A stretch of DNA of 64,000 bases. Source: Olivibacter sp. XZL3. Its GTDB lineage: Bacteria; Bacteroidota; Bacteroidia; Sphingobacteriales; Sphingobacteriaceae. Both the position numbers and the translations under genes were made by a program. How positions within the stretch are numbered: position 1 is the stretch's first letter; each line of letters opens with the position of its first letter. Where the stretch lies: the NCBI RefSeq assembly GCF_004368405.1, contig NZ_SBJH01000026.1:62001-126000 (forward strand). Direction: 5' to 3'. Shown piece by piece: positions 62,866-64,000 of the stretch. Under the pieces are notes generated by a model that was given only the letters and a program-made list of their open reading frames with translations, had not been told where the DNA came from and did no database searches.

Positions 62866-62939
62866 TTTTTTTGACGTTTTATAAATTATAGACTGATTAT
62901 TTTAATATTTTAACAAAAATGAACTTTTTTAATAAAAAT

Positions 62940-62971
62940 TTGACAACTATTATGAAGTTTTATTATGTTTG
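62940..62971 (+). promoter_or_regulatory. Orphan promoter: TTG-N21-TATGTTTG
   Basis: TTG at 62940-62942 (inside TTTGACA), 21-bp spacer, TATGTTTG at 62964-62971. Both boxes fit the phylum consensus, yet no credible coding gene follows before a terminator 110 bp downstream. Confidence 0.6.
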
Positions 62972-62975
62972 TATT

Positions 62976-63116
62976 AACAAAAGGCGGAAGTTATTGAAGA
63001 ATCAAAATTTCAAAAACCGGCAAACTTTTGTTTTGGATTTGCCCCTCAGTTTAATATAGGTTTATAATTGGTTAGCGTTGAAGCTCCTCTCCCAAAGGAG
63101 CTTCTTCTTTTTTTTT
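62976..63116 (+). ncRNA. Candidate small RNA of about 140 nt
   Basis: A promoter directly upstream and a strong intrinsic terminator at the end (GAAGCTCCT 63080-63088 with AGGAGCTTC 63096-63104, then a T-rich tract to 63116) delimit a short transcript. Internally GGCAAA (63019-63024) can pair with TTTGCC. A 35-codon frame (62952-63059) overlaps, but its ATG precedes the predicted transcription start. The length and form suggest a regulatory RNA; it matches no family I know. Confidence 0.45.
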
Positions 63117-63251
63117 AAAATTAACATCCTATCCCGAAATATCACCATACTAAATATCTAATTCTTAATTGAATGCCTATATTTTAAAAATTTTTTCAAA
63201 AATAGCGAGTTTTTTTCTCATTCCCAGAAATTTTTTAACCTTTTATTTGCT
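63105..63251. other. AT-rich gap with no recognisable feature
   Basis: Apart from the terminator T-tract at its left end, this stretch shows only A/T runs and no frame of note. Confidence 0.5.
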
Positions 63252-63442
63252 ATTAGGCCGTAAGCGGTATGGTTTAAGCCTTAGGCTGAAAGCAAGATGC
63301 CATAAGCTTTAGGCCGTTAACTGGTAAGGGGATAGAAAATAATAGGGAGTAGGGAGTAGGTTTTAGGCTGTATGTATGCTGTAAGCCTTAAGCTGGAAGC
63401 ACGATGCTATAAGCTTTAGGCTTTAAGCCGTAGGCAGTAAGC
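63252..63442. repeat. Cluster of degenerate short repeats (TTAGGC / GTAAGC type)
   Basis: About ten variants of a 12-14-base unit built from TTAGGC(C/T) and GTAAGC occur, for example TTAGGCCGTAAGC at 63254-63266 and CTGTAAGCCTTAAGC at about 63379-63393. A longer segment of about 37 bases recurs: 63280-63316 and 63387-63423 differ at a few positions. The same units appear at 63700-63732 and again at the window edge. Confidence 0.7.
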
Positions 63443-63694
63443 ACTGTTCATGAAGCAGAACCGTTCCAAAGAACAAAACGGCCTAGGCTTGCGGACGCTG
63501 CAATCGGCAGCCGGGCTGTTCCATGAGGCATTTCCGGCGAAGCCTGCGAGGAATCAGCAAAAGAGAAACGAAGCGAGGGCCACCGCCAAAGAGTGGCTTC
63601 TTTTGCGTCCGGACAGCCGGCAACGAATTGCAAGGGAGTAAGCCAGCCAAGCACCTTGCTCCACTTGGGTGCGTCCAAGTGGAAATGAGTTTTA
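63427..63694. repeat. Structured repeat element, copy 1
   Basis: First of two near-identical copies, offset 290-293 bp. It contains nested inverted repeats: CCGGGCTGTTCC (63511-63522) against GGACAGCCGG (63611-63620), GCAAAAGA (63557-63564) against TCTTTTGC (63599-63606), GCCAC against GTGGC (63579-63597), and an independent hairpin CCACTTGG-GTGCGT-CCAAGTGG at 63661-63682. It is GC-richer than its surroundings. Frames on the minus strand are not credible proteins. Confidence 0.8.
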
Positions 63695-63716
63695 CGTTAT
63701 AGGCTGTAAGCATTAG

Positions 63717-63987
63717 GCCGTAGGCAGTAAGCTCCGTTCGATCAAGCAGAACCGTTCCGAAGCACAAAAAACGGCCTAGGCTTGCGGACGCAGCAATCGG
63801 CAGCCGGGCTGTCCTAATACGTATTTCCGGCGAAGCCTGCGAGAAATCAGCAAAAGAGAAACAAAGCGAGGGCAACCGCCAAAGAGCGGCTTCTTTTGCG
63901 TCCGGACAGCCGGCAACGAATTGCAAGGGAGTAAGCCAGCCAAGCACCTTGCTCCACTTGGGTGCGTCCAAGTGGAAATGAGTTTTA
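63717..63987. repeat. Structured repeat element, copy 2
   Basis: Second tandem copy, starting with the same GCCGTAGGCAGTAAGC and ending with the same hairpin (63954-63975) and GAGTTTTA. Small indels and about twenty substitutions separate the copies; the large stem and the CCACTTGG hairpin are kept. The window ends 13 bp later inside another short repeat, so further copies may follow. Confidence 0.8.
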
Positions 63988-64000
63988 AGCTTTAGGCTGT

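Follow-up and report, generated by a model that had tools for sequence, protein, structure and literature searches.

Truncated tandem copies of a dispersed, folded and probably mobile repeat element in Olivibacter sp. XZL3

What kind of sequence is the tandem, apparently foldable repeat near position 64,000 of the 64,000-nt stretch of Olivibacter sp. XZL3 DNA analysed here (the window): a local duplication, a structured RNA or a mobile element? A sequence-only reading of the window had described two copies offset by 290-293 bp, and this description holds, with units of 233 nt (63475-63707 and 63768-64000) that are 94% identical and 293 bp apart. Copy 1 begins with a 5' remnant upstream of its core (63450-63479, + strand; the GAACCGTTCC region) that repeats at 63741-63769, its 63450-63478 stub recurring at a spacing of 291 with 90% identity; in longer copies it corresponds, by alignment, to AGAACGGAGAG...CGTTCCGAAG, and the remnant of copy 2, placed by comparison of the repeats, spans 63741-63772 (+). 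Next come the core rods captured by our covariance models R1 and R2 (63480-63648 and 63773-63941, both +), which match R2 over its full length (1-170) with 161 bits (E 8.4e-44) and 164.1 bits (E 1.2e-44), scores that are self-matches, as both copies belong to the R2 training set. The terminal hairpin singled out by the same reading (TCCACTTGGGTGCGTCCAAGTGGA) is identical in the two copies, with arms CCACTTGG/CCAAGTGG at 63660-63683 and 63953-63976 (+); other copies carry different stems here, with letters that match on both sides in an alignment judged by eye and uncounted. A little beyond position 64,000 comes a third copy, itself truncated (G000:C99:126093-126145, G000 being the window's own genome). 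The minus-strand frame expected to mislead gene finders (MDAPKWSKVLGWLTP) also opens in both copies from a TTG start (76 and 162 aa), the longer version running through both (63483-63971, -). We regard it as spurious, and a protein gene at the repeat was rejected because a Pfam scan of the 162-aa frame returned no match. In our view the two copies are probably truncated representatives of a non-autonomous mobile element that is dispersed, has terminal repeats and keeps its core as a folded + strand.

The suggested search of the whole genome for further copies bears directly on the simplest answer, a simple local duplication, which the sequence-only reading would have accepted for a unit unique to this locus with unconserved stems. 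Neither property was found. Blastn gave 12 matches in the window's own genome, short pieces included, and matches in 6 of 80 genomes, the own genome among them, two of the six being pieces of 23-24 bp. With R1, built from 17 copies (alignment A1), we found at E up to 1 eight matches in G000, of which three are degraded, 13 in G004, one of them with E 0.63, and five in G001, G001 and G004 being Olivibacter genomes as well; the same search gave no match in Olivibacter G002 and G003, the latter having fragments. Across 201 genomes of the family, R1 matched only G000, G001, G004 and G117, and R2, built from 25 copies (alignment A3), found four copies in G117 (Parapedobacter) and none elsewhere among 40 genomes of its family. 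Local duplication is therefore rejected, as copies occur elsewhere in the own genome and in other genomes. At the level of the phylum, R2 matched the own genome alone (1 of 395), in a search that could miss relatives because its filters were stricter and only about seven candidates were scored per genome, as against 14 in the 201-genome search. A core pattern allowing up to two mismatches occurs in 7 of 399 family genomes (G000, G001, G003, G004, G157, G319 and G403), and the single two-mismatch matches in G157, G319 and G403 are taken as chance. A wider contig scan returned 10 stretches, of which the six from Olivibacter and Parapedobacter have an R2 match; the carriers it names are Olivibacter jilunii and O. 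domesticus, of the same genus as the window's species, and Parapedobacter koreensis. The other four, outside Bacteroidota (a Verrucomicrobiales MAG, Parasphingorhabdus and two Methanoperedens-group records), have no R2 match and are likewise taken as chance. Blastn against phage and plasmid collections gave no match in either, nor did two patterns searched in IMG/VR, and cargo of a phage or plasmid was rejected on these grounds. Weak reverse-strand R2 matches to a B-type 5' module were also seen at four loci (E 0.014-0.028).

Longer copies show what the window copies lack. Both ends are present in 13 core-bearing copies, which measure 406-617 bp. Inverted repeats of some 13 bp, of the form GAA...TTC, mark their boundaries, and the predicted fold runs from a terminal stem through a 5' hairpin, a rod module (M1), a small hairpin, the core rod and a 3' hairpin back to the terminal stem. 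The end hairpins are 17-24 nt long and the rest consists of larger rods in a row. The terminal repeat of L066 and L069 is GAACCTTTAATTT...AAATTAAAGGTTC, and matched variants of the ends occur in longer copies (GAACG...CGTTC, GAACA...TGTTC, GAAGG...CCTTC). For the terminal repeats we used 22 elements, chosen for recognisable ends on both sides: the 13 with a core, one of 308 bp without the core interior, and eight siblings of 365-439 bp that combine M1 with another centre. In this set, positions 1-3 (GAA/TTC) are paired in all 22 elements and positions 4 and 5 in 20 of 22 each, with several pair types, and positions 6, 9, 10, 13 and 14 are paired in only 14-17. The 308-bp element (L136, in G004:C3) appears to have lost its core interior between two GGCATG repeats. 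When folded, L066 (454 nt) is predicted to form a single closed multibranched structure with the terminal repeats at its base; none of 100 shuffles folds as well (z -3.91). The foldability claimed for the repeat is thus borne out by this longer copy and by covariation among the dispersed copies; a lone window core only moderately beats its shuffles, with z -1.69 on the + strand (13 of 200 shuffles as good) and -0.89 on the - strand when folded as RNA, and -1.25 (+) and -1.02 (-) when folded as DNA.

Compensatory changes in the stems, for which the sequence-only reading had proposed to look, are present in the core. Across 26 copies, 94.5% of 977 cells are paired, both partners have changed in 26 of 38 pairs, and the alignment reaches a covariation score of 0.422, compared with 0.182 for shuffled alignments and 0.049-0.074 when the partners are slid. 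This 26-copy alignment was fitted to the structure, and unfitted data were therefore used as well. G.T pairs outnumber A.C pairs by 44 to 5 among 945 cells of the fitted alignment (25 of 26 rows) and by 31 to 1 among 543 cells of an unfitted MAFFT alignment, a count that omits one misregistered helix (37-42/139-144). The degraded copy L076 was excluded from A3, R2 and the G.T counts, and the copies on C93 and C111 and the match with E 0.63 are absent from alignments A1-A3. The excess of G.T over A.C shows that folding takes place on the window's + strand. Single-stranded DNA, in which G.T is likewise the milder mismatch, is also compatible with this polarity, which favours RNA. Covariation and polarity of the core together support the suggestion that the repeat is a structured RNA.

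Could the copies then be independent, functional noncoding RNA genes that spread as passengers of genome rearrangement and do not transpose? The strong covariation and the polarity of the core speak for such a reading, as do unpaired letters, AACGAAG for example, that are nearly invariant in divergent copies (window copy 2 and L083 are exceptions). However, terminal inverted repeats and several divergent copies per genome are not what it predicts, there is no model match in G002 or G003 (which has fragments), and degraded or truncated copies and the exchange of modules suit a needed RNA gene badly; we therefore regard it as unlikely. Known RNA families (HEARO and others in Rfam 15) were rejected, as no match came near a gathering score: window positions 62900-64000 (E up to 5) gave only sub-threshold matches, and at five full-length loci, searched with E up to 1, the only finding besides such matches was a TPP riboswitch that lies outside the core. 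This riboswitch (L100 1078-1181) lies near the fourth Parapedobacter koreensis copy.

The 5' module behaves differently from the core. M1, a hairpin plus a rod, is 92.3% paired in an alignment made from sequence only (n=18), with changes on both sides in 14 of 23 pairs and a covariation score of 0.394 (0.142 shuffled, 0.020-0.144 slid). Strand polarity is absent from it (G.T 5, A.C 10), and so the argument for folding as RNA is drawn from the core only. M1 and the 5' hairpin vary almost solely by Watson-Crick swaps, the pattern expected if these were mobile DNA palindromes only, whose paired changes arise through hairpin-templated correction or concerted evolution without any RNA role. That the whole element is of this nature is nevertheless improbable in our view, since the G.T excess of the core, in the unfitted as in the fitted alignment, would be unexpected if the two strands were equivalent.

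M1 is joined either to the core or to another central domain, named type II, that spans some 150 nt, is represented by 11 sequences and is itself conserved (CCTTGGAGGATACC...GTAGCCTACA). Type II elements (L174, L182, L188, L193, L197, L200, L175, L201, L126, L131 and L177) occur in three Olivibacter genomes (G000, G001 and G004) and in G089, which belongs to the genus of G117, and the 5' end of the core-bearing L084 closely resembles, in reverse complement, that of the type II element L126 at the 3' side. The element recombines as exchangeable modules. A pattern for the M1 hairpin has 8, 16, 0, 3 and 20 matches in G000-G004, respectively, where a reversed control has 0-1, and matches in 9 of the 15 genomes given; among the hairpin loci listed (27 of 28), good end pairs lie 335-422 bp apart. 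Because at least three matches (L172, L179 and L194) are not followed by M1, these counts include lone or chance hairpins. When M1 joined to a type II-like 3' half served as query, 42 of 399 relatives matched, and these belong to 20 of 127 genera; many of the matches are confined to some 25-50 nt at the T-rich hairpin of the 3' end, so the deeper spread of the end modules, and with it the link between them and the family, is tentative. An M1-type module also forms a three-copy tandem array with a 206-bp period (L148/L186, G099:C19:237808-238344) in another genome of the genus of G117, in parallel to the array of the window.

We examined the surroundings of 23 loci, with tandem copies merged and degraded copies omitted. 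The copies are intergenic, with the 3' end of L073 extending to the 3' end of a neighbouring ORF, and show no bias in orientation relative to the flanking ORFs (-- 8, ++ 7, +- 5, -+ 3). No recurring neighbour gene was noticed as a rule in the neighbourhoods inspected; L061 and L068 lie between what appear, from translations read by eye, to be ECF-sigma-like and FecR-like genes. The intergenic position, and the A-rich and T-rich flanks of many terminal stems, would suit a cis-acting terminator or UTR element of the adjoining genes, but with all four gene orientations found and no common neighbour noticed this is extremely unlikely. Of the 23 loci, two have promoter-like matches on the + strand and three on the - strand. 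At 11 of them the core is overlapped by ORFs of 100-169 aa, which are taken as by-products of the repeat, the Pfam scan covering that of the window only; the repeat accounts for false protein calls in such intergenic regions.

Two orthologous spacers are empty in related genomes. The spacer between panD and an acyl-CoA dehydrogenase gene measures about 90 bp in G003 and about 600 bp in G004, G003 being the only comparable genome, as the genes are apart in G001 and were not matched together in G000 and G002. The window spacer, in the AsnC-hisS neighbourhood, is about 950 bp in the window's genome, compared with about 130 bp in G001 and 200 bp in G004; the insert is absent, less clearly, from G003 too, and G002 has other gene content at this site. 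The flanks are too diverged to give an exact insertion junction. The proposed check for target-site duplications found none beyond chance (mean 2.36 nt for 22 elements, 2.41 nt with shuffled partners, with ends that may be a few A/T off). Dispersal, terminal inverted repeats and the two empty spacers support the earlier suggestion of a non-autonomous mobile element, and we infer that it moves. Together with quantified covariation and an identified folding strand, the terminal repeats and the two empty spacers mark out a family of large folded repeats.

How might the element move? Together with a REP-like dispersed repeat, the sequence-only reading had raised a linked REP-type transposase, and an element of REP/RAYT or IS200/IS605 type, which a hairpin-recognising Y1 transposase would move in the form of single-stranded DNA, would fit the hairpins near both ends, the single folding strand of the core and the lack of a detected target-site duplication. 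However, a search for Y1_Tnp gave no match in any of the four core carriers (G000, G001, G004 and G117), nor in G003; of the six genomes searched, only G002, where no core copy was found, gave a single match, and most of these genomes are drafts. Terminal inverted repeats are also not known as a feature of IS200/IS605 elements. This reading is refuted for the most part, although a Y1 enzyme could be unusual or missing from the assemblies, and we hold it to be very unlikely. No autonomous partner or linked transposase was noticed among the ORF translations beside 25 loci, read by eye. We favour instead a non-autonomous element that would be moved in trans by a putative recombinase recognising the GAA...TTC ends, perhaps with the end hairpins, its core being additionally retained as a folded single strand, most likely RNA of the + strand. 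The elements offer testable substrates for finding the mobilising enzyme.

The family is apparently undescribed and of a familiar kind: a literature search, including four element sequences entered as text, gave no description of it among the matches listed, with subscription journals and preprints thinly covered. It is MITE- or BIME-like in its behaviour, which is a likeness and not a tested membership of either class. BrickBuilt is reportedly a MITE of Porphyromonas gingivalis that contains tandem short repeats. It is named in PMC10969869 and shares with our element a host in Bacteroidota, an intergenic position and tandem short repeats; here, however, heptamer arrays flank a truncated folded core, and we set the two apart by description, not by sequence. 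Prokaryotic MITEs in general are short, protein-less and intergenic, with terminal inverted repeats and transcripts predicted to fold (PMC10969869). Our elements resemble them in being small and non-coding (308-617 bp in 22 elements, with a 162-aa window frame that lacks a Pfam match) and in the terminal inverted repeats of 22 relatives chosen for their ends, 13 of them core-bearing. They differ in the lack of a detected target-site duplication, in that no parent IS was found (translations beside 25 loci, Y1 search), and in having several exchangeable folded modules and a core with polarised covariation. BIMEs and REPs associated with RAYTs are likewise mosaics of palindromic units, intergenic and found in tandem clusters, according to PMC3733652, where REPs are palindromes of 20-40 bp tagged GTAG or CGTC and CGTC REPs occur in Bacteroidetes without a dedicated transposase. 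Our element is far larger, its main units being rods of about 100-170 nt, and no Y1 transposase of the kind that RAYT hosts have was found in its carriers. A broader idea, to which we give little credence, is a modular mobile superfamily across Bacteroidota in which the core strand is part of the mobility machinery (in cis or trans, with a recombinase or reverse transcriptase) and modules are swapped between families.

Against this background the window copies can be read as remnants. They have neither the terminal inverted repeat nor M1, and the M1 hairpin pattern (up to two mismatches) has four matches in the window where 2.65 are expected, none near the repeat. The period of about 290 bp noted earlier is present, but its unit, which consists of a truncated core and an array of the heptamer GCNNTA[AG], is not the natural one; this truncation and the recombination of modules lay outside the view of the sequence-only reading. 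One array lies upstream of copy 1 (63299-63442, with degenerate units back to about 63252) and one between copies 1 and 2 (63703-63732). The window holds nine array matches where 0.07 are expected, all within 63299-63732. Tandem Repeats Finder at a score of 40 did not report the 63299-63442 stretch; it reports another array, outside the window, that separates copies 2 and 3 (L001 2125-2184). Truncated cores on C53 and C113 likewise sit in a heptamer array, with the same 5' junction as in the window, and GTTATCA/ACTGGCA-type heptamers flank other copies (L002, L004). One lineage in the window's species may have lost its 5' half and outermost 3' end and become embedded in heptamer arrays, after which slippage or unequal recombination from array to array would have multiplied it in tandem; the 293-bp period is most simply explained by tandem growth via the arrays. 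The locus hints at how a broken element can be carried and multiplied by arrays of short heptamers. TAACTGA repeats, described in PMC4679880 from Beggiatoaceae, Cyanobacteria and five Bacteroidetes, are likewise intergenic arrays of 7-nt direct repeats, with a unit different from the GCNNTA[AG] of the window. Elsewhere in the own genome, a heptamer array contains two copies of another unit, about 140 bp long (L009, G000:C91, 1590-1890).

Apart from the repeat, a sequence adjoining the AsnC-type gene (63026-63115, GCCCCTCAGTTTAATATAGGTTTATAATTGGTTAGCGTTGAAGCTCC...GGAGCTTCTTCTTTTT) is near-identical in G002 and also matches G001:C8:189, G000:C57:7175 and G004:C18:73160; it is likely a multicopy small RNA with a terminator.
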